The translations under genes were made by a program, and so were the position numbers. From a virus: a stretch of DNA of 64,000 bases. Location of the stretch: IMG/VR virus record IMGVR_UViG_3300037847_002819, positions 31,890 through 95,889 of that record, one strand, 5' to 3'. Below the pieces are notes generated by a model. That model did no database searches. It saw nothing but the letters and a program-made list of their open reading frames with translations, and was not told the DNA's origin. Numbering within the stretch: position 1 is the stretch's first letter; every line of letters starts with the position of its first letter. Of the stretch, positions 1 to 30,416 are shown piece by piece.

Positions 1-494
1 TAATGACCATAAATAGGTTCTTCGTCATCGCTTGCAACAACAACCTTTTTTCCTCCTCTTTTAACTTCATCAAATGAAGTAGGAGTATGGAAAAGAATAT
101 TTCTAGGATTTAATTTACTTTTAGGTTGTTCGAAAATTGCTAATTTATCTTGTATTTTTTCCAAGTCTTCAAGATTGTCTTTTGTTAAAACCTTCTTTCC
201 TTTAATAGCCTTAGCAATATCTTTCAAAACTTCAAATACTCCTTTATCTCCTTTATTACGAGAATTAGGCCGCCTATACGCAGAAGTAACATGTTGTTCT
301 AATTGACCAAATAAAGTATTAGGAACTGCTTTTTTTCCTTGTTTTGTTTTTCTTCCTTCTGATTGAATATCTTTATCGCTAATCCCTTTACATTTAGTTT
401 CCCATGCAATATAATCAGCAATAAAATCTAATGTAGGACTATCAACGGTATTGCCGAAACCATCACTTGTTCGTGCTTTCTTCTTACTCGGCAT
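1..494 (-). CDS. Partial hypothetical protein, continues beyond left edge
   Basis: An open frame starts at the ATG whose complement is at 492-494 (MPSKKKARTSDGFGN...) and runs without a stop to the window edge, giving at least 164 residues. The N-terminus is lysine-rich; the body is mixed helical and charged (QLEQHVTSAYRR, DNLEDLEKIQDKL). It overlaps the preceding gene by 11 bases, so it is the next member of the same minus-strand operon, but it lacks the MSW tag of that operon. I do not recognise the family. Its place after the tagged proteins and before the unseen late genes suggests a virion or packaging role, but that is inference. Confidence 0.75.
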   Translation of the reverse strand, partial: MPSKKKARTSDGFGNTVDSPTLDFIADYIAWETKCKGISDKDIQSEGRKTKQGKKAVPNTLFGQLEQHVTSAYRRPNSRNKGDKGVFEVLKDIAKAIKGKKVLTKDNLEDLEKIQDKLAIFEQPKSKLNPRNILFHTPTSFDEVKRGGKKVVVASDDEEPIYGH

Positions 495-855
495 CTTCAT
501 CTTCCTCCTTCTTTTTGTGTGAATATCTTAAATTTATTATGTTGGGTGTGGCAGTGCTAACCGCCCCTGCTTCTCTTAGGAGAACATCGGTATAAGAAGA
601 TTCTTGCTTTTTAATTTCTGACATTACCTGTTGTAATAATTCACCTAGACTATATGCTTCAAGAGTTTTTTTACCGTCAACAGTAACGAAGTATTTACCT
701 CCGCCTTTTTGACGAACCTTGACATATCCTGTATCATGGTGCAAAGACATATTAGTTCCGCCTTTGCCGACACCGCCTTTAATGTCACCTTCTAAACCTA
801 ATGCTTCTAGAAACTCTCTAGGAGTCATCATTTTGAGAATGTTAAACCAATTCAT
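484..855 (-). CDS. Tagged small protein 11 (MNWFNILK N-terminus)
   Basis: 123 residues. It begins MNWFNILKM, a variant of the M-[S/T]-W-x-x-[I]-[L]-K tag shared by eleven genes of this operon (Asn instead of Ser/Thr). The body has a glycine-rich stretch (DIKGGVGKGG), a basic beta-like segment and an acidic lysine/glutamate tail ending KKKEEDEDAE. The start overlaps the upstream stop as ATGA. Function unknown; no enzyme motif is visible. Confidence 0.8.
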   Translation of the reverse strand: MNWFNILKMMTPREFLEALGLEGDIKGGVGKGGTNMSLHHDTGYVKVRQKGGGKYFVTVDGKKTLEAYSLGELLQQVMSEIKKQESSYTDVLLREAGAVSTATPNIINLRYSHKKKEEDEDAE

Positions 856-1148
856 TCATTGTCCTCCTGTAACATTCCCCAAGCCATTCCCTGTTCTTCT
901 TGGTATGAATCATCCATCATTTGAATAGTAGTTTTCAAATCGTTTATAGCACCTAATAATTCATTAATTGTTTTATTAATTTCTGTATCTCCGGCTTTAT
1001 TATCCTTAGAAAAATATATGTCTCTTAATTTCCTACTGATATAACTTAGCGAATTCTGTATTTCTTCGTGGTCTTCTAATACATCTGTTAATCTAGCCAT
1101 TCCTGAAAAACTAGTAATTTCCTTTTTCAGAATGGTTTGCCAAGACAT
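852..1148 (-). CDS. Tagged small protein 10 (MSWQTILK N-terminus)
   Basis: 98 residues, beginning MSWQTILKKE, the operon's shared tag. After the tag it looks mostly alpha-helical (LEDHEEIQNSLSYISRKLRD and a second helix around INELLGAINDLKTTIQMM). Its stop overlaps the next start (ATGA), implying translational coupling. Unknown family. Confidence 0.8.
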   Translation of the reverse strand: MSWQTILKKEITSFSGMARLTDVLEDHEEIQNSLSYISRKLRDIYFSKDNKAGDTEINKTINELLGAINDLKTTIQMMDDSYQEEQGMAWGMLQEDNE

Positions 1149-1157
1149 TGTTTCCCC

Positions 1158-1475
1158 TCAAATATTTTCATCAATAAATTTAACGCTATCATCAGGGTTT
1201 CCAGCAAACATTTGCGCTCTTTCGACTAACTCTAAAGCAAGCCTAGCAGTTTTTTGAAATTCTTTAGAAGTGTTTTTTAATTTAGCAGTTAACTTACTCC
1301 ATTCATTCTTTTCTTCATCTGATAACATATTATAAGTTCTTCCTCTTGTCATCAAACCTAATTTAAGACTGATACTTTCAGTTTCATTTCTCAACTTTTC
1401 TAAATGCTCCCCTGCTTCTAATATTTCTTCTGTTATGGATTCATAATCCTTTTTTACAATATCAAACCAACTCAT
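1158..1475 (-). CDS. Tagged small protein 9 (MSWFDIVK N-terminus)
   Basis: 105 residues from the ATG at 1473-1475 (MSWFDIVKKDY). An in-frame ATG three codons upstream (1484) is possible. The inner start is preferred because GATGATT lies just before it at normal ribosome-site spacing and because it aligns the tag with its ten relatives. The body is strongly helical and coiled-coil-like (EEILEAGEHLEKLRNETESI). Function unknown. Confidence 0.8.
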   Translation of the reverse strand: MSWFDIVKKDYESITEEILEAGEHLEKLRNETESISLKLGLMTRGRTYNMLSDEEKNEWSKLTAKLKNTSKEFQKTARLALELVERAQMFAGNPDDSVKFIDENI

Positions 1476-1476
1476 T

Positions 1477-1839
1477 TTAATCATCTCTCAAATGCGATAA
1501 ATATTCTATTTCGGGGTCTAAAGCATCTTCTATTGCTTCTGGGAAATCAATATCTTTGAAATTGAATCCATGTAATTCAAGTCTTTTTGTGAATCTTTCA
1601 TCCCTTTCTAATCTATCCGGTATTTCATCATTTAACATTTCTCTAATTTCTTTATCTGATTTACCTTCTCTCATAGCATCAGCGATTAAATCCAATGCGT
1701 GTCGTCTAAAACCCATACCTGCAAATTTACCATCATAATCATAATTGAGTTCATCTCCAAGATAAATAGCGGTTAGTTCTGTTGCATTAGCAACATCAGT
1801 CAACATATTGTCTTTTTTGATAATATTTTTCCATGACAT
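1477..1839 (-). CDS. Tagged small protein 8 (MSWKNIIK N-terminus)
   Basis: 120 residues from the ATG at 1837-1839 (MSWKNIIKKDN). A longer GTG-start reading exists (1848), but AGGTGA directly before the inner ATG acts as its ribosome site, and the tag aligns only from here. The body is acidic and helical (MREGKSDKEIREMLNDEIPD) and ends with an Asp/Glu-rich segment. Unknown family. Confidence 0.8.
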   Translation of the reverse strand: MSWKNIIKKDNMLTDVANATELTAIYLGDELNYDYDGKFAGMGFRRHALDLIADAMREGKSDKEIREMLNDEIPDRLERDERFTKRLELHGFNFKDIDFPEAIEDALDPEIEYLSHLRDD

Positions 1840-1848
1840 TTTTTTCAC

Positions 1849-2097
1849 CTAATCGCCTAGAGAAATACCTAAAGCATCTAAATCTGCTACTTCTTTTGCC
1901 TCTAGTATTTTCTTCTTTTGCTCAATCAACTTTTGCTTTTCATCCACTTCTCGCAACATTTGGTAAAGTTCTTTTTGGGTTTTACGCCTTAGTTTTTCCA
2001 ACTCTTGTTTTTTTCTATCCTCAACCATTTGTTGTCCGGCTCTTTCACGATAGTCGAATGTTTGACTTCCAACTTTAATTACATCTTCCCATGTCAT
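1849..2097 (-). CDS. Tagged small protein 7 (MTWEDVIK N-terminus)
   Basis: 82 residues from the ATG at 2095-2097 (MTWEDVIKVGSQ), with GATGATT as ribosome site. The frame is open six codons further upstream, but the tag alignment supports the inner start. From residue about 25 it is one long basic coiled coil (QELEKLRRKTQKELYQMLRE, then KQKLIEQKKKILEAKE). Function unknown. Confidence 0.8.
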   Translation of the reverse strand: MTWEDVIKVGSQTFDYRERAGQQMVEDRKKQELEKLRRKTQKELYQMLREVDEKQKLIEQKKKILEAKEVADLDALGISLGD

Positions 2098-2098
2098 A

Positions 2099-2380
2099 CT
2101 AATCATCCATCCCAAATATTTCTCTTAATTCATCACGCAATTGTTCATATCTTTTGGAATCAATTTTACCTTTCATAAACAACCTGCCTATTTTTTCTAT
2201 TCCTTGTTGATAGGTATGCGCCCCTGTTTGTAGTTCGGGCGACCTTGTGGAATAGTCATCCCTTGCTGATGTTGGTTCTTCATAAGAAGGACTCATGCCA
2301 TATTCTCTAAACGATTTAGGGTCTATGTTTCTTTCATTATCAGAAATCTTTCTTCTTTTTATTATGTCTTCCCAACTCAT
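2099..2380 (-). CDS. Tagged small protein 6 (MSWEDIIK N-terminus)
   Basis: 93 residues, starting MSWEDIIKRRKIS. The middle is polar and likely disordered (SPSYEEPTSARDDYSTRSPE). The last third is a predicted helix (IEKIGRLFMKGKIDSKRYEQ, then LRDELREIFGM), reminiscent of short oligomerisation (SHOCT-like) tails, a resemblance only. The start overlaps the stop of the tiny gene at 2377-2484 as ATGA. Confidence 0.8.
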   Translation of the reverse strand: MSWEDIIKRRKISDNERNIDPKSFREYGMSPSYEEPTSARDDYSTRSPELQTGAHTYQQGIEKIGRLFMKGKIDSKRYEQLRDELREIFGMDD

Positions 2381-2484
2381 TTCTTACCACCTGCGATTAA
2401 ATCTTTTTTGAGTTCTTTTTCTGCTTTATCTAATTCTTTAGACTTAGCATCAAACCAAGTATCTAGTAATGTGCATCTTGTCAT
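2377..2484 (-). CDS. Very small lysine-rich protein (35 aa), untagged
   Basis: ATG at 2482-2484 with GGTGATTAAT as ribosome site encodes MTRCTLLDTWFDAKSK and then a charged helix ending in AGGKK. Its TGA overlaps the ATG of the next tagged gene. It is the only gene in the run without the MSW tag, although TW occurs at residues 9-10. Function unknown. Confidence 0.6.
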   Translation of the reverse strand: MTRCTLLDTWFDAKSKELDKAEKELKKDLIAGGKK

Positions 2485-2485
2485 A

Positions 2486-2785
2486 TTAATCACCGTAGTA
2501 TATTTGGCCTTTGTCTCTATTCTGATAGGTTACATCAAATAGTAATTTTTGTGAATATTTTAGATTGGTTTTAACGCCTCTAATCCTTTCTTTTAATGTG
2601 GATAAGATAACCTTCTCTATTTTATCTCTATCATATTCGGGGTAATTATCAAATTCTTGCTTAATGGTGTCCACTACATCATCTAATTCTTTGTATAATT
2701 CATCCATAAATTGCCTTTGGCTATCATCTAATCTATTAGATATGAAATTTCTATCGCTTTTTTTAATCTCATCTTTCCATGTCAT
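2486..2785 (-). CDS. Tagged small protein 5 (MTWKDEIK N-terminus)
   Basis: 99 residues, beginning MTWKDEIKKSDRN. The rest is predicted helical, with an acidic heptad-like stretch (MDELYKELDDVVDTIKQEFD) followed by a basic helix (KVILSTLKERIRGVKTNLKY) and a short beta-like end. Immediate neighbours are only 1 base away on each side. Unknown family. Confidence 0.8.
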   Translation of the reverse strand: MTWKDEIKKSDRNFISNRLDDSQRQFMDELYKELDDVVDTIKQEFDNYPEYDRDKIEKVILSTLKERIRGVKTNLKYSQKLLFDVTYQNRDKGQIYYGD

Positions 2786-2786
2786 A

Positions 2787-3164
2787 TCAATGCCCCCTAA
2801 AACCTGACCCTTTACTCCCCATTTTAGGAGGTTTATTTCTTCGAGTTAATTCTCTTAACTCTTCTTCGGTTGCCCTTCTTCTTGGTTTTGGCTTATCTTC
2901 TTCTTTCATTCTATGTGGCCTATTTTTTCTTGGAGTTCCGAAAGGCTGCCTATAATCCGTTAAAAGACCTGTTCTTCTTCTTTTTTCCCTTCTCGCATCT
3001 CTATGAGACATTTCTTCAGCAGCAATATCTGACGATGAAGCCCTTCTCATATATGCTCTATCTTCTTCGGGAAGTTGAGTTAATTCATCTATTGACTCTA
3101 ATTCTTTTTTTCGCCTTCGCTTTAATTTAGCCCTGTCTAATTTTAATACTTCCTTCCATGTCAT
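2787..3164 (-). CDS. Tagged small protein 4, highly basic (MTWKEVLK)
   Basis: 125 residues, beginning MTWKEVLKLDRAKLKRRRKK. The protein is extremely Arg/Lys-rich and probably disordered (KPKPRRRATEEELRELTRR; basic C-terminus with GSKGSGFRGH). Such composition fits binding to nucleic acid, for example condensing or neutralising packaged DNA, but this is inference. It overlaps the upstream gene by four bases. Confidence 0.8.
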   Translation of the reverse strand: MTWKEVLKLDRAKLKRRRKKELESIDELTQLPEEDRAYMRRASSSDIAAEEMSHRDARREKRRRTGLLTDYRQPFGTPRKNRPHRMKEEDKPKPRRRATEEELRELTRRNKPPKMGSKGSGFRGH

Positions 3165-3484
3165 AGTTTCCCCGCCCTTCTGTCTTTTAATTTTTGATAC
3201 CTTTCTTTTTGGTCTGCGATTAATTTACCCATTTTACTCCGTTCAGTGTCCATCATAGAATCAACTTTTTCTCTTTTCGCTCTCTCTTTCCTTTGCCTCT
3301 TCATTTCTTTTGCTCTTTTACCTGCATCGGGAGCAAAGGGGTCAAATGGTTTTTTAGAAGGAGGCGGTAATTCCTTTTCGGGTTTAGGTTCAATATCAAC
3401 CTCATCCTTTTCTCTAGGATTACGCCTTCTATCTTTATCTCTAATTCTTCTCATATCATCTTTTAGTATATCTTTCCATGTCAT
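3161..3484 (-). CDS. Tagged small protein 3, highly basic (MTWKDILK)
   Basis: 107 residues from the ATG at 3482-3484 (MTWKDILKDDM), with GGTGATT as ribosome site; an upstream in-frame GTG (3496) is part of that site and is not preferred. The rest is very charged: Arg-rich helix (MRRIRDKDRRRNPREKDE), a proline-rich acidic linker (PKPEKELPPPSKKPFDPF), then a basic helix (AKEMKRQRKERAKREK). Function unknown. Confidence 0.8.
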   Translation of the reverse strand: MTWKDILKDDMRRIRDKDRRRNPREKDEVDIEPKPEKELPPPSKKPFDPFAPDAGKRAKEMKRQRKERAKREKVDSMMDTERSKMGKLIADQKERYQKLKDRRAGKL

Positions 3485-3489
3485 AATAA

Positions 3490-3879
3490 TCACCAATCTT
3501 CAGGGTCATTCATCCAACCATCACTTTCAACATTAAGATAGATTTCTAGACCCATACTTTCTGCTACTGATTTTATTTCTTGTGCGTTTGGTTCTTTAAT
3601 CATTTCAATTCTAGATGGGTCTTCTCTAAACTTAGCATATTTATTGAAAAATGCTACAAGAGGGGAATTAGGATGTTTATCAAAAACATTTCTTTTAAAA
3701 CTACTATTTTCCCTCATTCGTGCTTCAAGACCATTATCCCAATCGTTACTATAAAATGTTAGCCAATACTTATCACTATCTCCTATATTTGGGTCATATA
3801 CATAAATATCCCCCACTACCGGAAATCCGTGTTCTCGCTGCGTTGGTATGTTTTGTTTTAATATATCTTTCCAAGTCAT
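3490..3879 (-). CDS. Tagged small protein 2 (MTWKDILK N-terminus)
   Basis: 129 residues, beginning MTWKDILKQNIPTQ. Unlike most siblings its body looks globular, with beta-rich, aromatic segments (YDPNIGDSDKYWLTFYSNDW) and an alternating helix near IEMIKEPNAQEIKSVAESM. Unknown family. It shows that the tag is attached to quite different kinds of domain. Confidence 0.8.
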   Translation of the reverse strand: MTWKDILKQNIPTQREHGFPVVGDIYVYDPNIGDSDKYWLTFYSNDWDNGLEARMRENSSFKRNVFDKHPNSPLVAFFNKYAKFREDPSRIEMIKEPNAQEIKSVAESMGLEIYLNVESDGWMNDPEDW

Positions 3880-3880
3880 A

Positions 3881-4213
3881 TTAATCCCCTCTCAATTCTA
3901 ATAATTTTTCTAATTCAGCCTTTCTTTTCCTATAATCATCATCCATAGCGGTTTCTAATTTTTTAAGACTAACAGTTGTTTGATTAAGTAATTTTAGAGT
4001 ATTATTCACATATCCCTTAAACATCGTGTTTTTATATCTTGATAATTCTTTTTCAGCATCCCTTATACTATCCTCTAAATCATCAAAGTCAGCCTTTTCC
4101 AAAAACTTCAAATATCCTTCTAATGAACGAACATGGCTTTTATTTGCATTCTTAGTTTCTCCAAATACTTTTGTAGTAACTCTTTTCTTTTTAATCTCAT
4201 CTTCCCATGTCAT
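3881..4213 (-). CDS. Tagged small protein 1, first gene of the operon (MTWEDEIK)
   Basis: 110 residues, beginning MTWEDEIKKKRVT. The remainder is a predicted helical bundle or coiled coil (LEGYLKFLEKADFDDLEDSI, RDAEKELSRYKNTM, ETAMDDDYRKRKAELEKLLE). It is the first gene after a non-coding gap and so probably lies next to the operon promoter. Function unknown. Confidence 0.8.
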   Translation of the reverse strand: MTWEDEIKKKRVTTKVFGETKNANKSHVRSLEGYLKFLEKADFDDLEDSIRDAEKELSRYKNTMFKGYVNNTLKLLNQTTVSLKKLETAMDDDYRKRKAELEKLLELRGD

Positions 4214-4891: not shown

Positions 4892-5380
4892 ATGGAAATA
4901 GAAAAATGGAATGATAAAGTTGCCATGATTATTGCATGGTTAAAGGAAAATGACGCAGGTGCTATGGGACAGGTTATTCAAGTTAATATTGAAGCCGGTA
5001 ATGAAGCACAAACAGATGAAGATAGGAATAGATTTTGGGAGGCAGTTAGAGCCTTGTGTAAAACACTTCCAAATAGCCCTATTAAGAAAGGTCGTGGTTC
5101 AACACTACCTAATGAAGTCCAAGCGGTTTTAGATTCAATATCTGATGAAGTCGCTCAAGCCGCTAGTGATTTTTTTGCTATTGGTGACATGAATATGCTT
5201 CTTTTGAAGCATGGAAAGAGTGGCGGTGGTTTATTCACTGCTGACGAGTATTCTGCATATATGTCACAAACAGTAGTTAATTCTCTCAAGAGGAGATACA
5301 AAGACAAAATTTGGGATGGTAGTCGTCAAGGACTATTAACCCAAGCATTCCCCGTTGAGGAGGTTGACGAGGAAGAATGA
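4892..5380 (+). CDS. Acidic-tailed paralogue A of a three-member family
   Basis: 162 residues. It aligns closely with the gene at 5660 (shared NDAGAMG, DEDRNRFWEAVRALCKTLPN, SPIKKGRGSTL, HGK.GG, WDG) and more distantly with 9213. Predicted helical, no membrane segment, ending in the acidic EEVDEEE. The ribosome site TTAGGAG lies before the ATG. It is a single-gene module: element E1 upstream, a strong hairpin terminator downstream. The family is unknown to me. The conserved core plus acidic tail would suit a DNA-mimic or protein-binding role, which is a guess. Confidence 0.85.
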   Translation: MEIEKWNDKVAMIIAWLKENDAGAMGQVIQVNIEAGNEAQTDEDRNRFWEAVRALCKTLPNSPIKKGRGSTLPNEVQAVLDSISDEVAQAASDFFAIGDMNMLLLKHGKSGGGLFTADEYSAYMSQTVVNSLKRRYKDKIWDGSRQGLLTQAFPVEEVDEEE

Positions 5381-5587: not shown

Positions 5588-5659
5588 TAGCACATCGAAT
5601 AGTAGTGGCTCAAAGGGATTGAGTCGGTATTGATGGAGTCAATACAGGAGATGAAAAGA

Positions 5660-6190
5660 ATGGAACAAGAAAAGTGGATAACAAAGTCTAACGAAATTAG
5701 AGCATGGCTTGAGCATAATGATGCAGGGGCTATGGGAGCAGTAATAACAGTAAATCTAGATGCTGGCGATTCAGCCGCATCCGATGAAGACAGAAATCGT
5801 TTTTGGGAAGCAGTTCGGGCATTATGCAAGACCCTCCCAAACTCGCCAATAAAGAAAGGTCGTGGCTCAACGCTAGACCCAGCAATTCAAGCCGTTGTGG
5901 ATTCTGTGAGCAATCGCATTCAAAATGCTTTTGTCACAATTTCTGACGCTGAATTGCTACTTGAAGTAATGCTACCACATGGTAAAACAGGTGGCGCATA
6001 CGCTAACATTGAAGCATTGGCTTCTGATATGGCAACAAAGGCTGTAAGAGTCCTAAAGGCGGCATTGAAAGATGGTCGCTGGGATGGAACAATGAGCGAT
6101 AGTGGACTAACAGGCATGACTCCGCCTATGAAGTCTGATTCCTCTAACGAGGAAGCAACGGAAGAATCCCAAGAGGAGGAAACCGTCTGA
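5660..6190 (+). CDS. Acidic-tailed paralogue B of the same family
   Basis: 176 residues from the ATG at 5660 (MEQEKWITKSNEI). This start is chosen because it aligns with paralogue A and has CAGGAG 9 bases upstream; the frame is open ten codons further back. It shares the NDAGAMG, DEDRNRFWEAVRALCKTLPN and KKGRGSTL blocks, then diverges and ends in a Ser/Glu-rich tail (SNEEATEESQEEETV). Codon use is richer in G and C than in A. Single-gene module with its own element and terminator. Function unknown. Confidence 0.85.
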   Translation: MEQEKWITKSNEIRAWLEHNDAGAMGAVITVNLDAGDSAASDEDRNRFWEAVRALCKTLPNSPIKKGRGSTLDPAIQAVVDSVSNRIQNAFVTISDAELLLEVMLPHGKTGGAYANIEALASDMATKAVRVLKAALKDGRWDGTMSDSGLTGMTPPMKSDSSNEEATEESQEEETV

Positions 6191-9212: not shown

Positions 9213-9689
9213 ATGGATGATGTAAAGTGGGACAGTATCGTTATTGAAACGAATGAATACCTAGAAACAGATGCGATTGATGGTGCGTTGAAACAAGTGG
9301 TTCAACTACACCTTGAAGTCGGTCAAAATAACCCGAATGAAAGAGATGCTGCGGCAAATGCGCTAAAGGCACTATTGAAAGGCCGTGATGGTTCACCATT
9401 TGGCCGCAAAGGTGCAAAGAGCGCAGTTCCAACAAGTGTTAGAGTAGTAATTGACCGCATTTGCGGTGTCGTTGAAGAAGCGGCAGTTAACTACTACAAC
9501 CATGATGGAATTATGGCGGCTCTTTGTCTTCGTCATGCTAAATCCGGTGGAGGACAATATGAGTCTGCTGAAGATTATGCAAAGGCACAGGCAAAGAAAG
9601 CACGAACCCAACTAAGTAAGATGTTCAAAGAACAAACTTGGGATGGGAGCGTTGAGTCGCTTTTGTCAAGTGAATCTTCTGAAGAATGA
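9213..9689 (+). CDS. Acidic-tailed paralogue C, divergent family member
   Basis: 158 residues (MDDVKWDSIVIETNEYLET). It keeps the layout of paralogues A and B: KW near the start, a helical core with GSPFGRKGAKSAVP in place of NSPIKKGRGSTLP, RHAKSGGGQY in place of KHGKSGGGLF, WDGS near the end, and an acidic tail. Identity is clearly lower than A to B. It uses a different promoter from A and B. Function unknown. Confidence 0.8.
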   Translation: MDDVKWDSIVIETNEYLETDAIDGALKQVVQLHLEVGQNNPNERDAAANALKALLKGRDGSPFGRKGAKSAVPTSVRVVIDRICGVVEEAAVNYYNHDGIMAALCLRHAKSGGGQYESAEDYAKAQAKKARTQLSKMFKEQTWDGSVESLLSSESSEE

Positions 9690-10010: not shown

Positions 10011-10172
10011 GGGCTATTGGCGCAGTCAGGTAGCGCAACGGGCTTTTAATGAGGTTTTATCGAAGTAATAAATGAGGACTTGCTCAATTTTCGATTATGT
10101 GTTATACTTTCTCATAACTCATTTTCCTCAAAAGATACCCGTTGGTCGTGGGTTCGAACCCCACATAGCCCG
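10011..10172 (+). tRNA. tRNA-Lys(UUU) with an 88-base intron
   Basis: Acceptor GGGCTAT (10011-10017) pairs with ATAGCCC (10165-10171). D stem GCGC/GCGC, anticodon stem ACGGG (10038-10042) with CCCGT (10138-10142), T arm GTGGG-TTCGAAC-CCCAC (10148-10164). The anticodon is TTT at 10045-10047. The intron runs from 10049 to 10136 at the canonical 37/38 position. Its borders form a perfect archaeal bulge-helix-bulge: TGAGG/CCTCA helix, TAA bulge, CTTT/AAAG four-pair core, ATA bulge, then the anticodon stem. No CCA is encoded. It needs the host splicing endonuclease, which marks the host as archaeal. Confidence 0.93.
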
Positions 10173-13511: not shown

Positions 13512-13733
13512 ATGAAAATAATAGATTTTTTTAGAAGATTAAGAAAAGAGCCGGTAATACCTGTTCCTAAATGTAGTAGGTGTGGTTTAGCATCATCCTA
13601 CGAAATGATGACTTCTTTCGTGCATAGCGGAGAAGTTATTGAATTCAAACTATGCGAAAGTTGTTTAGAAGAATACAACGCAAAATATAATTCGAGGTGG
13701 ATTCCACCACCCATAACAAAAAGGGAGGAATAA
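13512..13733 (+). CDS. Zinc-ribbon protein (73 aa)
   Basis: ATG at 13512 after GGTGAT; starts MKIIDFFRRLRKEP. CSRC and CESC pairs about 28 residues apart form a zinc ribbon. Basic N-terminus, tail KREE. Likely nucleic-acid or protein binding. Confidence 0.65.
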   Translation: MKIIDFFRRLRKEPVIPVPKCSRCGLASSYEMMTSFVHSGEVIEFKLCESCLEEYNAKYNSRWIPPPITKREE

Positions 13734-13735
13734 AA

Positions 13736-13957
13736 ATGAATATAGAAATAGAATATGGAAATACAATATACAATAATGATAAGATAGCAAAATACACTAA
13801 GTTTCAATTCGACACACTGAATGACTTAGAACAATTTTGGGTAATTAGAACAGATGAAGGCGATTGGAAGGCTGATTTGAAAAGTTTAGTAATTACTCAT
13901 CAAATGTGGGTTGATTCAAAAGAGTTTTTTATGGAAGCGGGGCGTGAAGAAGAATGA
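13736..13957 (+). CDS. Small hypothetical protein (73 aa)
   Basis: ATG at 13736 preceded by GGGAGG; starts MNIEIEYGNTIYNNDKIAKY. Alpha/beta, acidic, ends GREEE. The end forms the recurring GAAGAAGAATGA stop/start junction with the next gene. Unknown. Confidence 0.65.
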   Translation: MNIEIEYGNTIYNNDKIAKYTKFQFDTLNDLEQFWVIRTDEGDWKADLKSLVITHQMWVDSKEFFMEAGREEE

Positions 13958-16598: not shown

Positions 16599-18461
16599 AT
16601 GTCAAATACAGCAATAGAAACATTGTCTGATATTACAGTGCATATGAAATATGCAAGGTATTTACCAGCAAAGAAAAGAAGAGAAACTTGGAATGAAATA
16701 GTTGAAAGAAACAGAAATATGCATATTAAAAAATATCCAGAATTAACAGAAGAAATAGGTGAAATATATGAAAAATTCGTCAAAACAAAGAAAATCCTCC
16801 CTTCTATGCGGTCTATGCAATTTGGGGGCAAACCTATCGAAATTAGTCCAAATAGGGTTTATAATTGCGCTTATATGCCTATTGATTCCCTTTTATCTTT
16901 TAGCGAGGCTATGTTCCTACTTCTCGGTGGAACGGGGGTTGGATATTCAGTCCAACGCCATCATATTGAGCAATTACCGGAAATCATTCAACCTAATCCC
17001 GAAAGAAAACGCAGGTATCTTATTAGTGATTCTATTGAAGGATGGGCTGATTCAATTAAAATCCTTTTGGAGTGTTATACCGGAAATAGGAGTAGTAGTC
17101 CTATTTTTGATTATTCTGATATTAGACCAAAAGGAAGCCTATTAAGGACTAGTGGCGGAAAAGCGCCGGGTTTTCAGCCATTAAGGGAATGTTTAGTTAA
17201 AATAGAAGGAATGCTTCAAAATAAAAATAATGGCTCTAAATTAGATTCAATTGAAGCACATGATATTATGTGTTATTTAGCAGATGCAGTATTAGCAGGT
17301 GGTATTAGGAGAGCCGCTATGATTAGTTTATTTAGTGCAGATGATTCTAAAATGATTAGTTGTAAGTCTGGTAATTGGTGGGAAAATAATCCACAAAGAG
17401 GTCGTGCAAATAATTCAGCAGTTATTCTTAGACATAGAGTGACTAAAGACTTCTTTATGGGTCTATGGGAAAGAATACAACATAGTGGTAGTGGTGAACC
17501 GGCAGTTTATTTCAGTAATGATAAAGATTGGGGAACAAACCCATGTTGTGAAATTGCTTTGCGACCATATCAGTTTTGTAATCTAACAGAAGTAAATGCT
17601 TCTGATATTACAGACCAAGCAGATTTAGAAGCAAGAGTAAAAGCGGCTTCATTCATAGGAACGCTTCAAGCAGGTTATACTGATTTCCATTACCTTAGAG
17701 AAATATGGAAAAAGAACACTGAAAAAGATTCTTTGCTCGGTGTATCTATGACAGGTATTGCTTCTAATGTTGTTGAACCTTTAGATTTAGAAATGGCTTC
17801 GTTTGCCGCTAAACAGGAAAACAAGAGGATTTCTAAAATCATTGGTGTAAAACCTGCGGCTAGAATTACTTGTGTAAAACCTGCTGGAACTACTTCTCTC
17901 GTTTTAGGAACAAGTAGTGGTATTCATGCTTGGCACGACAATTATTACATTCGAAGAATTAGAGTAGGTAAGAATGAAGCAATCTATTCTTATCTATCAT
18001 CTAATCATCCGGAATTGGTTGAAGATGAATACTTCAATCCGGAGGAACAAGCAGTTATTTCTATTCCTCAAAAGTCTCCCGATGATGCTATCACAAGACA
18101 TGAATCAGTATTTGATTTATTGGAGCGTGTTAAGAATTTTAGTATTCGTTGGGTTAGAACAGGCCATATTGATGGTTTGAATAGCCATAATGTGTCTGCA
18201 ACAATATCTGTTAAAGATGATGAATGGGATGATGTTGGCGAATGGTTATGGATGAATAGACACTACTACAATGGTTTGTCTGTATTACCTTATGATGGAG
18301 GAACATACAAACAAGCACCATTTGAAACAATAGATAAGGAAACATATGATGAAATGATGTTAGCCTTAACTAAGATTGATTTAACTAAAATTACCGAAGA
18401 ACAAGACGATACTAACTTAACAGGCGAATTGGCTTGTGCTGGTGGGGCTTGTGAAATCTAG
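16599..18461 (+). CDS. nrdJ: Class II (adenosylcobalamin) ribonucleoside-triphosphate reductase
   Basis: 620 residues. Reduces ribonucleotides to deoxyribonucleotides with B12 as radical source, supplying viral DNA synthesis. Seen: NCAYMPI (first redox cysteine), FLLLGGTGVGYS, ADAVLAGGIRRAAMI, NPCCEIAL with active-site cysteine near residue 316-317, CNLTEVN, CVKPAGTTSL, and a C-terminal C-x4-C (C613, C618) that shuttles electrons. These match the monomeric Lactobacillus RTPR-type enzyme, slightly shorter than its usual 700 or so. No separate small subunit is present, as expected. ATG at 16599 after AGGTGTT. Confidence 0.93.
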   Translation: MSNTAIETLSDITVHMKYARYLPAKKRRETWNEIVERNRNMHIKKYPELTEEIGEIYEKFVKTKKILPSMRSMQFGGKPIEISPNRVYNCAYMPIDSLLSFSEAMFLLLGGTGVGYSVQRHHIEQLPEIIQPNPERKRRYLISDSIEGWADSIKILLECYTGNRSSSPIFDYSDIRPKGSLLRTSGGKAPGFQPLRECLVKIEGMLQNKNNGSKLDSIEAHDIMCYLADAVLAGGIRRAAMISLFSADDSKMISCKSGNWWENNPQRGRANNSAVILRHRVTKDFFMGLWERIQHSGSGEPAVYFSNDKDWGTNPCCEIALRPYQFCNLTEVNASDITDQADLEARVKAASFIGTLQAGYTDFHYLREIWKKNTEKDSLLGVSMTGIASNVVEPLDLEMASFAAKQENKRISKIIGVKPAARITCVKPAGTTSLVLGTSSGIHAWHDNYYIRRIRVGKNEAIYSYLSSNHPELVEDEYFNPEEQAVISIPQKSPDDAITRHESVFDLLERVKNFSIRWVRTGHIDGLNSHNVSATISVKDDEWDDVGEWLWMNRHYYNGLSVLPYDGGTYKQAPFETIDKETYDEMMLALTKIDLTKITEEQDDTNLTGELACAGGACEI

Positions 18462-18469
18462 GTGATTAG

Positions 18470-18814
18470 ATGAAAACTCGCAGGATTCGGCCTATCCGTC
18501 ATTTGAGTTTTGATGACTTTGTAAGAGTCATTATTTCTTATGATGATGTATGGTCTAATTCTGCGAAAAAGAAGATTAAATTAGCACTTGACGCTTGTGC
18601 AGGTTTAGAAGATGAAACAGACAAAAAGTATAGACTTTGGCAGACTGTTAAAATAGTATTATGGGAAATACCCGAAGCGGTGGAAAGAGGCTTTGCTGAC
18701 TATGCTAGAAAAGCATTTGCAGAAAGACATGAAGCCCTTCAATACCATAATAAAAACCAAACTGATTTCTATAATAATTATATTTACGGAATAATGAAAG
18801 GGTGGTATAAATGA
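18470..18814 (+). CDS. Hypothetical protein (114 aa)
   Basis: MKTRRIRPIRHLSFDDFVRV onward; helical with a basic N-terminus. GGTGATTAG precedes the ATG. The stop overlaps the next start. Unknown. Confidence 0.65.
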   Translation: MKTRRIRPIRHLSFDDFVRVIISYDDVWSNSAKKKIKLALDACAGLEDETDKKYRLWQTVKIVLWEIPEAVERGFADYARKAFAERHEALQYHNKNQTDFYNNYIYGIMKGWYK

Positions 18815-18978
18815 AAGAAAAAGACCCCGAATATACAAAGAGTCATTGGTCGTATAAAAAAAGAGTCGCTACTAAATGTAGGATTTGTGGAGGCCAACTG
18901 CTTTTACCGGAAGATATGAAAAAAGAAATTCACAAAGAATGTGTTAATAATATAAATGATAATAGTTATATGATGTGA
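18811..18978 (+). CDS. Small zinc-ribbon-like protein (55 aa)
   Basis: MKEKDPEYTKSHWSYKKRVA, then CRICGGQLLL and a later HKEC, a C2HC-type knuckle. Basic. Likely nucleic-acid binding. Confidence 0.6.
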   Translation: MKEKDPEYTKSHWSYKKRVATKCRICGGQLLLPEDMKKEIHKECVNNINDNSYMM

Positions 18979-18982
18979 TAAA

Positions 18983-20230
18983 ATGAATGAATTAAAAATA
19001 AGAATACGAAGACCTGACGATTCCCAAGAATTTTGGAGAACAACGATTAAAAGTAATTTGATTAAATCGGCATACGATGTTCAAATTCAATCTAATAGAA
19101 ATGCGAAAGACCCTGTTCATTCTGCTATTACGACTTTCTTTTCTAGTAACTTAAAATCTTCAAGAGGATATTATAATAGACACTATAAATATATGAGATT
19201 ACCTTCACAGGACTTCAACGAAGTTATTGATATTGGAGGTTGTTTGATAGCATTAGGAAGAAGGGGTAATAGATATACTCTAAATGGTAAAACGGAAAGT
19301 TTGCATACTATTGCTTCTGCTTTGGCTAGAGTTACTTTCAAGTCCTGTTTTGAAAAAGATGTGGCTAAACTAATGAAAGGACTGTATGCTACTCTAAGTA
19401 TTCCCGAAGATGTAAAGTATTGTTTAGAGAATAGAGTGCCATTTCATTTCTTCGATAATTTTCAGAAAACCGAAGTTAGATTGAATTGTCAACAGATTAG
19501 CGATAGCGAAGTTGCAATTGAAGTTAGTGATGGAGTTTGGGGAACAATGACTAATAAAGAATTAGAATCCTTCTGTGCTTTTTATCTTCATGGTAAAAAG
19601 AGAAGTAAAAAATGGATGTTTTGTTCTCCTGAGATTCTTTATGAAAGAACAGTAGGAGTTAAACCAAAAATTTCAGATAGAAAACTAATGATTGAATTTC
19701 TAAAGCAAAATAGACAACAGGATATTGTCGAAGATAGGGCTAAGTTATTGGTTAAAGAAACGGCAGAAAAATATCCCGACAGAATCAAAGTCGTTTATGA
19801 TGATGATAAAGAAGTATCAGCCATGTATGTTCGTGGAAAAGGTTGGGATTGGAAACTTACTAACACTAAATTCAAATCAGATATTCAGATGGTTTCGACA
19901 TTTGTTTACTCAACACCCGATACTGATGAATACTTCGCACAAAGAATTGAGAAGTGGGAAGAAGAATGTTTGGGAATTAATAATGATGCTGTTAATAATG
20001 GTTCTGAAGAAGAAATTAAATTACCGCCAAAACCAACTAATGAACCTCAATGGAAAGGGCCGATTTGTATTGATAATATGTCTGGTGGTTCTTCTTTAGG
20101 CGACCAATTTGTAGCAAGAGCATTAGCACTTCTTAATGATACTTTAACAGTAAAAATAGTTAACACGATTAAAAGGTATATATGTAATGATGAAAATAGT
20201 ATAAGAGTTGATTTTGATGAAATGCAGTGA
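18983..20230 (+). CDS. Large hypothetical protein (415 aa)
   Basis: MNELKIRIRRPDDSQEFWRT onward. Mixed alpha/beta; segments such as YKYMRLPSQDFNEVIDIGG and VYDDDKEVSAMYVRGKGWDW. No Walker, nuclease or zinc motif seen. It overlaps the TFB gene by 14 bases, so translation is coupled; it may act with TFB. Unknown family. Confidence 0.7.
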   Translation: MNELKIRIRRPDDSQEFWRTTIKSNLIKSAYDVQIQSNRNAKDPVHSAITTFFSSNLKSSRGYYNRHYKYMRLPSQDFNEVIDIGGCLIALGRRGNRYTLNGKTESLHTIASALARVTFKSCFEKDVAKLMKGLYATLSIPEDVKYCLENRVPFHFFDNFQKTEVRLNCQQISDSEVAIEVSDGVWGTMTNKELESFCAFYLHGKKRSKKWMFCSPEILYERTVGVKPKISDRKLMIEFLKQNRQQDIVEDRAKLLVKETAEKYPDRIKVVYDDDKEVSAMYVRGKGWDWKLTNTKFKSDIQMVSTFVYSTPDTDEYFAQRIEKWEEECLGINNDAVNNGSEEEIKLPPKPTNEPQWKGPICIDNMSGGSSLGDQFVARALALLNDTLTVKIVNTIKRYICNDENSIRVDFDEMQ

Positions 20231-21116
20231 ATGTGGTTGTTTAGTCTTTAATTATAATGAAAGACTAGGAGAGACAGAATGTAGTGATTGCGGATTAGTA
20301 ATCGTAACAGATTTGTTTGAAGAAAGTGTCAGAATGATAGATGATGGAAAGGTTGTCCATTCTGCTGAAAGGGGAGAATTAGGTTCTGTAATAACAGGAA
20401 AGGGTTCGTTTAAGTTTAATAGAAGAGGTAACAATAATGTTATTCCTAGACATATTACTGCTGGTTTGCAGACTTGTAATATGATTCTATCTTCTATCCA
20501 AATAAACCATCCTCTTAAAGATAGAGTTAAGGAATGTTACTTAGAAGCACAAAAGAAAGGTTTGTTTGGAAAAATCAAACTAGAGGCTAGATGCACTGCT
20601 ACTGTCTTCTATGTTCTGAAAGAAAATAGAACACCTGTTCCTATGAAAAAATTATGTTCTGAATATTCGTGTTCAACTAAAGTAGTGAATAGATTAGTGC
20701 GGAAAATGATTCACCACTTCAAAAGTAAGAATATACTTTATGGAGCAGACCCCTCTTTTATGTTAAAGCAGACCTGTTCTAGAATAACAGATGATGTAAT
20801 GTTTTATTCTAATGCTATGGATTTGATGTTAAAGTTAGAACCTATCATAGAAGACCATTGTTATCATAAATCAAAGGCATATTACGCAAGTGTATGTTGG
20901 GTGGCGACAAATATGTTTAGATATTATGGTGTAACTAAGAATGATATTTCTGAAAGCACAGATATTTCCTTATCAGCAATAGGAAAGACAAGTAAAAAAT
21001 TAATCCAAATGTTAGGATTCGATAAAATGTCCGAAATTAAAGGGCGAGATATAATAGAATATGGTGATATAAATGACAATAAGAATGAGAGATGTAATAC
21101 CGACAAGCGAGCATAG
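20217..21116 (+). CDS. tfb: Transcription initiation factor TFB (TFIIB homologue)
   Basis: 299 residues from the ATG at 20217. N-terminal zinc ribbon CSEC ... CSDCGLVI (residues 3-26), then a linker (SAERGELGSVITGKGS) at the B-reader position, then two cyclin-like repeats from about residue 85 to 285. TFB recruits RNA polymerase to TATA-bound TBP; a viral copy could switch host transcription to viral promoters. No viral TBP is seen. The start sits inside the end of the upstream gene. Confidence 0.88.
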   Translation: MKCSECGCLVFNYNERLGETECSDCGLVIVTDLFEESVRMIDDGKVVHSAERGELGSVITGKGSFKFNRRGNNNVIPRHITAGLQTCNMILSSIQINHPLKDRVKECYLEAQKKGLFGKIKLEARCTATVFYVLKENRTPVPMKKLCSEYSCSTKVVNRLVRKMIHHFKSKNILYGADPSFMLKQTCSRITDDVMFYSNAMDLMLKLEPIIEDHCYHKSKAYYASVCWVATNMFRYYGVTKNDISESTDISLSAIGKTSKKLIQMLGFDKMSEIKGRDIIEYGDINDNKNERCNTDKRA

Positions 21117-21252
21117 ATATTGGAAAAAGGATTTTCTAAATACTTATGTGACTACCAATAATAAAAGAAAAGAGTATTGTAAATATCAAACTCTTTTGGG
21201 TCGTAAAGACTCGTTTAAGATATATGAAGAAGCAAGGAGGAAGTTTAAGTGA
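21073..21252 (+). CDS. Small basic protein (59 aa)
   Basis: GGTGATATAA precedes the ATG; MTIRMRDVIPTSEHRYWKKD onward with a basic C-terminus (EEARRKFK). It overlaps TFB by 44 bases and the next gene by four. Unknown. Confidence 0.5.
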   Translation: MTIRMRDVIPTSEHRYWKKDFLNTYVTTNNKRKEYCKYQTLLGRKDSFKIYEEARRKFK

Positions 21253-21884
21253 ATATATTTGCACTATCAAGAAATCCGCAAGAAGCGGCACTAGAAATGT
21301 TAGACAAGCACATAGTTAAAATGCCAACGGAAACTTGCCAAATGTTACATACAAATGTTTTGTATTTTGACTACATTGAACATTATGGTGAAGAACCTAC
21401 TTTAGCGCAAGTAAAGCAGTTTCATAGAGATATTAATTCAAAACTAATGAAACCTGCTATGTTGAATCATCCTTCAACAATATGGGCTAGACAGAACCCT
21501 CATAATACTCGATGGTTATATGAGCATGGTAAAGCATTATGTGAAGAATATACCTATCGCTACGGCAAGGTTCATGGTTCGCAATCTAGAATATTAGATA
21601 TAGCATATACGATTGATGAAGATTCTAATTGGTCGTTTGCTACACCTGTAACTATTGCTATGGATGATAAGTATAGATTAGTCAAAGATAACAGGATTCC
21701 CGATTGGGACTTCGTAATTAATAGTTACAGACATTATTACCTTCAAGGTAAATGGAGGTTTGCTGAATGGAGGGCAAATAGAATGCCAACATGGTGGCCT
21801 AAAGACCACTACAAAAACAAATACAATGAAGGAATAGACAATTATAATAAAAGATGGAATGCAAAATTGGAGAGATTAGAATGA
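21249..21884 (+). CDS. Conserved phage protein, possible pyrimidine-dimer glycosylase relative
   Basis: 211 residues with GTG start (AGGAGG upstream). The opening MNIFALSRNPQEAALEMLDK followed by HIVKMPTETCQML, then NHPSTIWARQ and WLYEHGKALCEEYTYRYGK, is typical of a widespread phage and giant-virus protein family (MNIF...DKHxVKMxxE). I recall this family being linked to pyrimidine-dimer DNA glycosylases; I am not certain of that link. Its end overlaps the E1-like start. Confidence 0.6.
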   Translation: MNIFALSRNPQEAALEMLDKHIVKMPTETCQMLHTNVLYFDYIEHYGEEPTLAQVKQFHRDINSKLMKPAMLNHPSTIWARQNPHNTRWLYEHGKALCEEYTYRYGKVHGSQSRILDIAYTIDEDSNWSFATPVTIAMDDKYRLVKDNRIPDWDFVINSYRHYYLQGKWRFAEWRANRMPTWWPKDHYKNKYNEGIDNYNKRWNAKLERLE

Positions 21885-22441
21885 AGAGAAAAATATTGAT
21901 TATAGGAGTGGGTGGTATTGGGAGTTTCCTAGTGCCACTATTAGATAAAGTAGGAATGTATGATATTTCAGTGGCAGACCCCGATAAGGTCGAAACTAAG
22001 AATTTAACATATCAAAACTTTACAGAAGAAGATGTTAATTTTCACAAAGTAAGTAGGATGAATGCTCGATATAATAGTGTTAATAATGCGAGCAAATTTC
22101 CTATCCTAACTTCTAAACAAATGCAAGGATATGATTTAGTCGTATGTTGTGTTGATAATTTATCAGTTAGAAGAACCTTGTATAATTCAAATATTAAATG
22201 GTTGGATTTAAGAGCGCAAGGTCGTAATGGGGCTTTCGTTACTTCTGATGCAGACCCTAAAATGTATGATTCTTTATTAGCAGGGCCAGATGGTTCATTT
22301 TCTTGTCAAGGAAATTCATGGGATGGTAGCAATAGTGGCGTTCATTTCATGCAAGTTGTTATTGCAGGTATTGGCGCACAATGGATTCAAAGATGGTTTA
22401 ACAAAGAAGATGTAAAATCCTTTATGGTAATTAATGTATAG
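21881..22441 (+). CDS. E1/ThiF-like adenylating enzyme
   Basis: 186 residues from the ATG at 21881. Rossmann nucleotide loop GVGGIGS (9-15), DPDKVETKNLTYQNF (the D-x-D-x-V-E-x-x-N-L block, with Tyr where E1 enzymes usually have Arg), VVCCVDNLSVRRTLYN (acidic pocket and R-x2-L-x-N), GSFSCQGNSW (possible active-site cysteine), and a C-terminal FMVINV. E1/ThiF proteins activate the C-terminal glycine of ubiquitin-like proteins with ATP. It is compact and resembles the PRTRC-type ThiF. With the GG-ending protein at 15937 and the JAMM gene at 23533 it suggests a viral conjugation system. Confidence 0.85.
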   Translation: MKRKILIIGVGGIGSFLVPLLDKVGMYDISVADPDKVETKNLTYQNFTEEDVNFHKVSRMNARYNSVNNASKFPILTSKQMQGYDLVVCCVDNLSVRRTLYNSNIKWLDLRAQGRNGAFVTSDADPKMYDSLLAGPDGSFSCQGNSWDGSNSGVHFMQVVIAGIGAQWIQRWFNKEDVKSFMVINV

Positions 22442-22452
22442 GAGGAATAAAA

Positions 22453-23532
22453 ATGAAAGGAGAGAAATGGACAACAGGACAAATAATGAGAGGCGCATAT
22501 TTGCGCTTAGTGGAAAAAAGAACTTGGCCGCAAATTAAAACACAGATGGAAAAAGAAGGCTTTCCTGTTAGAAGTGTTGATAATTATGGTGCTACAATTA
22601 GAAGATGTATCAATCAATATAACATATCTTTTGATGATGAACCTAAAACAAGTGATTGGAGAAGTGACCCTGCCACAAGAAAACAATGCAGGTATATTGC
22701 TTCTATGACACTACCCGATGGTAAAAATAGCGAAATCACTAAATTAACAAATGAGTTAATAGAAGCCTCAAAGCGTGGTGAATTTGATAAAGAGGCCGCT
22801 AATGAGCAGATTAAACTATTAGAAACTACTCTATTAGAGGCTCAATCTTTCAATGTTAAAGCGAAGAATAATACTAACTTGTTATACAGTGGTGTTGCTA
22901 CCCGTTGGACTCCAAAAGAAGATGCTCTTTTGGTTAATTGGATGAATGAGCATAAAGACGGAGAACAGGGTTTTCCTCCTAATCTGAATAGAACCCCTAG
23001 AGCGTGTCGTGAAAGATGGTTGAGAAGCCTAAAACATCTAACTCCTTCTATTAAGACTGTTAGAAAGAATGGCACATATACTCTTCAAGATGAAACACCT
23101 TTGGAGCAAACATTGGTGTATTATGAAGAACCTAAGAATACAAGTAAAAGACCTAAAAATTGGACTCGCTTGAATAATGAAAGTATTGAATATCCTAATA
23201 CTAACAAACCGTGGACATATGATGAATCATTAGAAGCATTGGTAATGTGGCATTCTATGTCAATTGATGATGCGAGAGAAAAGTTTGGTCGCCCATATTG
23301 GGTGATAGCAAAACATATCGAGAAGCATTTTGATTTTACATATGCTGAAAGTAAATCGTTGCTTATGGAGGCCGCAGGTATCAAGAATCAATTAGAGGCT
23401 AATAAGTTAGCAGAAAAGAAACCTTCGCTTAGGAAGCGTTGGAGAGACAAGAGAAACGCTAAAAAGCAAAGGCGACTAGAGAAGAAACTAGCAAAGACCC
23501 AAAGAAAATTGGAGAAGATGGAGTTGGAATAA
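22453..23532 (+). CDS. Myb/SANT-like DNA-binding protein
   Basis: 359 residues. A Myb/SANT-like repeat at about residues 150-200: RWTPKEDALLVNWM, then RTPRACRERWLRSLK. A second, weaker repeat near residues 255-300 (PWTYDESLEALVMW, FGRPYWVIAKHIEKHF) and a possible third at the N-terminus (KWTTGQIMRG, RTWPQIKTQME). The last 40 residues are a basic coiled coil. Probably binds DNA as a viral regulator. It lies between the E1-like and JAMM genes. GGAGG precedes the ATG. Confidence 0.7.
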   Translation: MKGEKWTTGQIMRGAYLRLVEKRTWPQIKTQMEKEGFPVRSVDNYGATIRRCINQYNISFDDEPKTSDWRSDPATRKQCRYIASMTLPDGKNSEITKLTNELIEASKRGEFDKEAANEQIKLLETTLLEAQSFNVKAKNNTNLLYSGVATRWTPKEDALLVNWMNEHKDGEQGFPPNLNRTPRACRERWLRSLKHLTPSIKTVRKNGTYTLQDETPLEQTLVYYEEPKNTSKRPKNWTRLNNESIEYPNTNKPWTYDESLEALVMWHSMSIDDAREKFGRPYWVIAKHIEKHFDFTYAESKSLLMEAAGIKNQLEANKLAEKKPSLRKRWRDKRNAKKQRRLEKKLAKTQRKLEKMELE

Positions 23533-24021
23533 ATGAATGGTAAATTTAATACAGTAATGAAAAGAATAGATTTAGAAGCAAATAGATTAAAGGCTGAATT
23601 ATACATAGATGCTTATTATGAACAAGGTATGGAAATAAAAGATTTATTTGAACATATTTGGTTTGCTTCAACAGAAATACTGAATGGTTTAGAGGTTCAA
23701 GTTGTTATTGATTCTAATGACGCTATTCATATTTCGTCAGGTTCAGCAGGTTATGTTGATTTTCAAATTGACCCTGTTGGAATGAAATTACCGATTAAGT
23801 GCTGGATTCACACACACCCATTCGGTAGTGCTTATTTCAGTGGAACTGATATTAGAACAGTTAGTATTTGGCAACCATTAATGAAGACTGCTTATGTGTT
23901 AGGTGGAGATGGGCATTATGGTTCTTGGAATCAAAAAGAACCTTATCTATTAGATATATACCGTAACCATGAATATGAAAGAACACAAGTTTGGGTTAGA
24001 AAAGGAGATGAAGAAGAATGA
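23533..24021 (+). CDS. JAMM/MPN metalloprotease (deubiquitinase-like)
   Basis: 162 residues. A complete JAMM signature: HTHPFGSAYFSGTD at residues 93-106, that is H-x-H-x7-S-x2-D, with a candidate upstream glutamate near residue 48-54. JAMM enzymes use zinc to cut isopeptide or peptide bonds after ubiquitin-like Gly-Gly tails. It lies in the early operon two genes after the E1-like gene, not among the tail genes, which argues against a tail-lysis (lambda K-like) role. Confidence 0.85.
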   Translation: MNGKFNTVMKRIDLEANRLKAELYIDAYYEQGMEIKDLFEHIWFASTEILNGLEVQVVIDSNDAIHISSGSAGYVDFQIDPVGMKLPIKCWIHTHPFGSAYFSGTDIRTVSIWQPLMKTAYVLGGDGHYGSWNQKEPYLLDIYRNHEYERTQVWVRKGDEEE

Positions 24022-24332
24022 GATTTAGAAGAATTAAAAGTGGAAATAATGCAATTAGACAATACAAAGGAAAGCCGTTCAATAAAGAAACGCAGTATGG
24101 CGAATCGGATGCTAAGGCAGTCGCTAGAATAACTCTAAGTGAAAGAAAGCGAAGACATATGTCAAAACACCCTAATGATGAAAATACTACTAATCCAAAC
24201 AAGGGAGTTTATTGGGGCAAGAAAGGTAAGTCTCACAAAGACTTAATGGAATTCCATAAGAATCATATTTGGACATATATTGATGCTGATATGAATAAGG
24301 GATGGGTTAACATCAGTGGTGAAGAAGAATGA
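24018..24332 (+). CDS. Small basic protein (104 aa)
   Basis: MRFRRIKSGNNAIRQYKGKP onward; Lys/Arg-rich with polar, glycine-rich sections, ending SGEEE. Translationally coupled on both sides by GAAGAAGAATGA junctions. Likely nucleic-acid binding; unknown family. Confidence 0.65.
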   Translation: MRFRRIKSGNNAIRQYKGKPFNKETQYGESDAKAVARITLSERKRRHMSKHPNDENTTNPNKGVYWGKKGKSHKDLMEFHKNHIWTYIDADMNKGWVNISGEEE

Positions 24333-24989: not shown

Positions 24990-25138
24990 TGTGCGATAAT
25001 TGCGGTCAAAATGCAACTAGATACAAAGCGTTTGGTGCTACCGGCTGGAGATATTTTTGTAGTGAAAGATGCTACGCTAGATTTAATGCTATGCCTATTC
25101 AAGAAGAAGGATATTATGGATTGGAGAGATTAGAATGA
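24989..25138 (+). CDS. Small zinc-ribbon protein (49 aa)
   Basis: MCDNCGQNATRYKAFGATGW, then FCSERCYARFNAMP: CDNC and CSERC form a treble-clef or ribbon site similar to FCS/HIT-type fingers. It lies between the two chaperonin genes, overlapping both by a few bases. Confidence 0.6.
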   Translation: MCDNCGQNATRYKAFGATGWRYFCSERCYARFNAMPIQEEGYYGLERLE

Positions 25139-30412: not shown

Positions 30413-30416
30413 TTAT

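Follow-up and report, generated by a model that had tools for sequence, protein, structure and literature searches.

The window analysed here, a stretch of 64,000 nucleotides, comprises bases 31890-95889 of the 95,889-bp IMG/VR virus record IMGVR_UViG_3300037847_002819 (genome G000); the remainder of the record was also analysed. At the start of the window, eleven genes on the minus strand encoded proteins of 82–129 amino acids (aa) that all began with M-[STN]-W-x3-[ILV]-K, referred to below as the tag (Table 1). All eleven were ATG-initiated open reading frames (ORFs), with Trp3 and Lys8 present in 11/11. The starts and the pattern reported in a first-pass annotation of the sequence were exact. 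Beyond residue 10 the bodies were unrelated, as that annotation had also claimed; phmmer placed the 11 proteins in 11 different single-linkage families, and recent gene duplication was therefore rejected as the origin of the array. The array is real, but the claim that its eleven genes are consecutive has to be qualified, since an untagged 38-aa ORF with a GTG start fits between two of them.

G000 had opposed modules, with replication genes on the plus strand (UvrD helicase, ribonucleotide reductase, chaperonin) and late genes on the minus strand (terminase, portal, S78 prohead protease, SU10-type capsid protein, tail genes). The portal and tail genes were assigned by position and size. The capsid protein matched Pfam SU10_MCP and was approximately 25% identical to the capsid protein of haloviruses HVTV-1 and HCTV-1/5. 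In IMG/VR, 454 relatives were confirmed. Poseidoniales are abundant ocean archaea. Their viruses, the Magrovirales (PMC12999244, PMC10160649), were described as marine tailed viruses with 90–110-kb double-stranded DNA, opposed replication and morphogenesis modules and an HK97-fold capsid related to that of Druskaviridae haloviruses (PMC12999244). On the basis of this description and its relatives, G000 fits a magrovirus-like virus of the Poseidoniales group. No named magrovirus record was found among the matches of a phage-collection search with the capsid protein.

Eight further strict copies of the tag were located in G000 outside the window (Table 1), together with shifted or altered variants (INWRSILK, MELLMWEDLLK, MSWKAVLS and MTWDYYDEQEEYILK); the original set of eleven was correct but understated. 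Eleven near-complete genomes contained 144 strictly tagged late-strand proteins in 86 body families. In this set, where Trp3 and a hydrophobic residue 7 were given by the search pattern, Ile was preferred at position 6 (105/144), Leu at position 7 (91/144) and Lys over Arg at position 8 (137/144). An alignment of 89 tagged proteins, approximately one per family, conserved only M1, W3 and K8. The possibility, raised with the first-pass annotation, that the tag is part of a known larger domain common to all eleven array proteins was not borne out, as Pfam and PHROGs scans of the 89 proteins returned one-off matches only. A literature search with the letters of the tag gave no match. Strongly basic bodies made up approximately 20% of the tagged proteins, compared with 7% of the other late proteins.

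Across 18 related records, the strict tag was present in 223 of 1159 late ORFs versus 4 of 996 ORFs on the other strand (Fisher p ~1e-58), and within-protein shuffling of the late-strand ORFs predicted 1.3 matches (maximum 4). With only 4/996 on the other strand, a start sequence common to all genes of the genome was rejected. A slightly looser pattern tagged about a fifth of the late ORFs (272 of 1159, and 2 on the other strand); because the ORF calls were mechanical and included spurious ORFs, such percentages are lower bounds. Record coverage and relatedness were uneven, so that the Fisher values count sequences and not independent events; a better measure is the number of unrelated body families, 86. 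When 2.9 million IMG/VR viral contigs were scanned with a 24-nt degenerate DNA pattern for M[ST]WKDILK, 86 stretches were retrieved. Of the 80 loci listed, 77 had one or more tagged ORFs, confined to a single strand within each locus, and nearly all encoded magrovirus relatives; two loci looked like chance matches. A scan of genome contigs retrieved only four, all from bacterial metagenome-assembled genomes, which are probably mis-binned viral DNA. We conclude that the tag is real, strongly selected and lineage-wide, and that it is probably an address tag. It was not found in the head-module proteins of the related halovirus HVTV-1. In that virus (L139), genes 113, 115 and 116, located between portal and protease, all contained a VYI.SP.EAPE module, which may be the halovirus lineage's own common head-protein module.

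The tags were confined to a block that begins with the first late genes and ends shortly after the capsid gene, in agreement with the expectation that tagged genes of related viruses cluster near head genes. The tagged share of late ORFs was approximately half at -30 to -20 kb and at -15 to -10 kb from the capsid gene and 8% at 0 to +5 kb. No tagged ORFs were found beyond +10 kb, where the tail genes lie, and the tail module had none. The array in the window lay approximately -26 to -30 kb from the capsid gene. This is the very start of late transcription, and thus the array stands at the head of the late genes, as had been proposed.

Leu at position 7 was encoded by all six codons, and Ile at positions 6-7 by all three; this free variation indicates that selection acts at the peptide level. 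Where residue 2 was Ser, its codon was AGT in 88% versus 24% in the background. The start itself shifted (MW, MSW, MNDW, MIDDW, as in MWxxILK, MNDWxxLLK and MIDDWxxILK) while W-x-x-[IL]-L-K was kept. Complete orthologs of several families retained the tag while their bodies diverged or were swapped. This included the Cys-rich and AHCG families, in which body parts came and went; in the AHCG family, an EF-hand-like part was present or absent behind the same tag. The AlphaFold2 model of the Cys-rich family was of low confidence (predicted local distance difference test, pLDDT, 41). Homologs of three tagged bodies were found in bacterial phages (pelagiphages, roseophages and an actinophage). These lacked the tag, which marks the tag as an add-on, and the gene of the actinophage homolog directly adjoined a capsid maturation protease gene. 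DUF6321 and two other small basic domains were common to magroviruses and pelagiphages, cyanophages and roseophages, which suggests exchange between archaeal and bacterial marine viruses.

The motif also ended several head-module proteins, which the first-pass annotation, while correct about the N-terminal tag, had missed. The S78 prohead protease-scaffold of G000 (Pfam Peptidase_S78, 5.8e-9) ended in ASMDWSDIHKMVNNI, and the C-terminal consensus of this protein was M[DES]W[SA]D[IL][HN][KR]. The spacing of W, D, I and K was that of the tag MSWKDILK. Among 78 unique protease sequences, W403 was conserved in 78/78, M401 in 77/78 and D405 in 76/78, and the acidic linker around residues 201-260 varied freely. 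Rows with nothing but the scaffold tail were misaligned and were left out of the analysis. The C-terminal Trp was present in 72/72 of a further set. Distant clades had MSWADLNR, MSWDEIGR or MSWSDIHK at this position. Independently of the protease, a neighbouring protein (82 aa in G000, ending in SSMDWSDIHKMMEKVGGQ; 75–90 aa in relatives) carried a C-terminal motif, for example MSWDDIEK. A late family of 329–421 aa beside the array, with moderate body homology, kept the motif C-terminally in diverged orthologs (KSWQDILRW, KSWLELLKDF, KSWVELLRV, KSWQEVIRA, LKWDEVLRV, KQWREILKGL). In total, the C-terminal form was found on 13 late ORFs and on none of the other strand (shuffle expectation 0.7). 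With the motif on tagged N-termini and on the C-termini of head proteins, it appears usable at either end of a protein.

The sequences themselves show the common motif, its spacing, selection at the amino-acid level, confinement to the head-module block and a copy at the scaffold terminus. The best explanation of the tag, which we consider likely, is a scaffold-mimicking capsid-loading peptide. The octapeptide M-x-W-x-x-[IV]-[IL]-K would serve as a portable docking peptide and direct late proteins into the magrovirus procapsid during assembly, mimicking the C-terminus of the prohead protease-scaffold that the virus itself encodes; the C-terminal copies argue for such mimicry. By analogy with other tailed viruses, this end of the protease-scaffold would touch either the scaffold core or the inside of the coat shell. 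The scaffold and protease of tailed viruses must be inside the procapsid, so that a protein with the same peptide at either terminus would be co-assembled there. We infer that tagged proteins would dock to the coat or scaffold core, become encapsidated, stay with the packaged DNA and, at infection, presumably pass into the archaeal host. Approximately 10–20 such putative cargo proteins are present per virus, and several of them turn over rapidly between close relatives. The T4-like sorting peptide proposed in the first-pass annotation thereby gains strong indirect support from the maintained tag, its confinement to the head block and its twin on the scaffold, but not from any T4-like cleavage consensus. 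A wider proposal, a reasonable possibility that we hold more tentatively, is that magroviruses run a modular delivery system in which one scaffold-derived peptide brings 10–20 quickly exchangeable effectors or counter-defence proteins per virion into Poseidoniales cells, a system to which about a fifth of the late ORFs would be given over.

Several observations weigh against the loading peptide. No conserved cleavage-like residues followed the tag, with no consensus at positions 9-14 of the 144 proteins, and most tagged bodies were without predicted function. The scaffold motif has His/Asn before Lys where the tags have Leu/Ile, and the scaffold end and the tags may thus bind non-identically. 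In one clade, the 75–90-aa neighbour of the protease-scaffold had Phe for Trp (MSFDDMAKI) while the tags kept Trp. The AlphaFold2 model of a scaffold-tail/capsid read-through of L032 (natural DNA, stops read as Gly) was of low confidence (pLDDT 43) and therefore uninformative on coat binding.

In their small size, helical character and charge, many of the bodies resemble scaffold or core proteins, and the motif is shared with the scaffold. Both would suit a tag whose partner is the portal, the scaffold core or some other factor of morphogenesis, with the tagged proteins acting as non-packaged assembly chaperones; in T4, too, the internal proteins become part of the scaffolding core (PMC3012670). 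We consider this unlikely, as the number of body families (86) and their strong turnover among close relatives fit diverse cargo better, and some tagged bodies occur in unrelated phages. Slightly less probable still is that the motif is a site recognised or cleaved by the S78 maturation protease, which would trim tagged head proteins while targeting resides elsewhere. The protease itself bears the motif, and the T4 targeting sequence overlaps the gp21 cleavage site (IPII/IPIII MKTYQEFIAEA; scaffold gp22 MLKEQLIAEA). However, a consensus after residue 8 was lacking, a cut close to the protease's own motif would take off just a few residues, and the capsid protein, the usual substrate, had no motif near its N-terminus. 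Short terminal hydrophobic-Lys peptides can act as chaperone or membrane ligands, and the genome encodes a Cpn60_TCP1 chaperonin (thermosome). Nevertheless, a host- or chaperonin-directed signal unrelated to capsids is improbable, given that the tags are strictly limited to the head-module side of the late block and absent from the tail genes, and given the match to the protease-scaffold C-terminus. The over-use of ATGAGTTGG, seen in the Ser2 codon, would fit a DNA-level origin in which a start region (recombination junction or translation-initiation element) was copied with each gene and the peptide has no role, but this was largely refuted by the codon variety, the shifting starts and the C-terminal copies far from any start codon, and we regard it as very improbable.

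With the tag, dozens of orphan genes become a defined class that can be listed by a simple pattern. If it is a capsid-loading peptide, it identifies the proteins expected to enter the host along with the DNA and, consequently, the places in which counter-defence factors against archaeal hosts should be sought. The tag is a minimal candidate loading peptide for an archaeal virus shell. If cargo is addressed with a copy of the scaffold's own end, the ready recruitment of unrelated proteins would be explained.

Other features of these genomes are included in Table 1. A transfer RNA gene in the window was found by Rfam and missed by ARAGORN. It contained approximately 90 extra bases and is probably an intron-bearing archaeal transfer RNA. 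Proteins of the replication module often ended in DEEE or GEEE, mostly encoded as GA(A/G)GAAGAATGA immediately 5' of the next start. EE was the ending of 12/68 ORFs on the plus strand versus 4/78 on the minus strand. These endings may reflect in-frame reading of a purine-rich ribosome-binding sequence. Two close paralogs (NRFWEAVRALCKTLPNSPIKKGRGSTL) and a third, diverged paralog were found near the start of the early block. Within the late genes, a 549-aa protein with a homing-endonuclease-like domain (phrog_5046) was encoded directly downstream of the terminase, and an ATP-dependent DNA ligase gene was located within the head module, immediately upstream of the gene for the prohead protease and away from the replication module. 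The IMG/VR record 3300021958_000021 (184,733 bp; L035, L262) contained two different protease/capsid loci approximately 90 kb apart and looks as if assembly had joined two magroviruses.

Table 1. Features of the tag array, of G000 and of related loci. Coordinates are those of the window unless a genome or locus is named; minus-strand genes start at their upper coordinate.
Feature	Coordinates	Strand	Remarks
MNWFNILK..., 123 aa	484..855	-	Best-conserved body of the eleven (MTPREFLEALGL...); tagged homologs in other records
MSWQTILK..., 98 aa	852..1148	-	Tagged homolog in G001
MSWFDIVK..., 105 aa	1158..1475	-	Coiled-coil-like; tagged homolog in G001
MSWKNIIK..., 120 aa	1477..1839	-	Tagged homologs
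MTWEDVIK..., 82 aa	1849..2097	-	Charged helical; tagged homolog in G002
MSWEDIIK..., 93 aa	2099..2380	-	Tagged homologs
Untagged ORF, 38 aa	2377..2493	-	Gene status uncertain
MTWKDEIK..., 99 aa	2486..2785	-	ORF and tag
MTWKEVLK..., 125 aa	2787..3164	-	Arg/Lys-rich; tagged homolog in G001
MTWKDILK..., 107 aa	3161..3484	-	Lys/Arg-rich; no homolog among other genomes' tagged proteins
MTWKDILK..., 129 aa	3490..3879	-	Aromatic body; no homolog among other genomes' tagged proteins; no Pfam match
MTWEDEIK..., 110 aa	3881..4213	-	Helical; the late transcription block has its first tagged gene here
Late protein, 374 aa	G000 31265-32389 (N-terminal part at window 1..500, rest outside)	-	C-terminus ...KKSWQDILRW
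Eight further strict tag copies	G000 18635-21132, 29959-30610		Outside the window
Small basic domains common with bacterial phages	G000 18147-18638; L104 18032-18340; L010 4926-5132
Protein with homing-endonuclease-like domain	G000 21135-22784 (L010 5135-6784)	-
ATP-dependent DNA ligase	L009 8709-11234	-
DEEE/GEEE-ending proteins	4892-5380, 13697-13957, 23533-24021, 24018-24332, 27243-27524, 27521-27889	+
Three paralogs	4892-5380, 5630-6190, 9213-9689	+
Transfer RNA	10011-10172	+
Cpn60_TCP1 chaperonin (thermosome)	25135-26652	+	Virus-encoded

In phage P22 and in herpesvirus UL26/UL26.5, a terminal peptide of the protease or scaffold is the shell-binding end. Judged by sequence, the magrovirus protease-scaffold terminus likewise carries a conserved motif. 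While the terminal element serves the scaffold alone in P22 and herpesviruses, in magroviruses many unrelated proteins seem to have acquired a copy of it.

The internal proteins of T4 are diverse defence proteins in which only the targeting sequence (CTS) is conserved, and the CTS directs them into the scaffolding core (PMC3012670). The tag resembles the CTS of IPI, IPII and IPIII (MKTYQEF/MKTFKEF) in being a short N-terminal peptide on otherwise unrelated small proteins, and on sequence grounds it appears to be of the same functional kind, a short terminal peptide common to unrelated head-module proteins. Additionally, the start of the T4 scaffold gp22 resembles that of IPII/IPIII, which parallels the match of the tag with the magrovirus scaffold. 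The termini of the T4 internal proteins and scaffold (NC_000866) do not fit M.W...[IL]K, and with no such sequence similarity the tag is not a T4-type CTS by descent. The T4 CTS is a 10–20-residue propeptide that is cleaved off (PMC5694885), whereas the tag showed no sign of such a site. Unlike in T4, the scaffold copy of magroviruses is C-terminal, and the tag is also present at the C-termini of other proteins. T4 has three internal proteins plus Alt, compared with roughly 10–20 tagged proteins in magroviruses.

In giant phages of the SPN3US/phiKZ type, inner-head proteins are believed to reach the prohead by means of their N-terminal regions (PMC5694885). These regions are mostly long propeptides removed by the protease, in contrast to the magrovirus tag of approximately 8 residues without sign of processing. 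In phage P1, the N-terminal segment of DarB was needed and sufficient for entry of TetR-mCherry into the head, and the cargo is counter-defence (PMC9024508). The P1 Dar proteins have no consensus N-terminus (PMC9024508), whereas the magrovirus consensus is near-invariant over 86 families.

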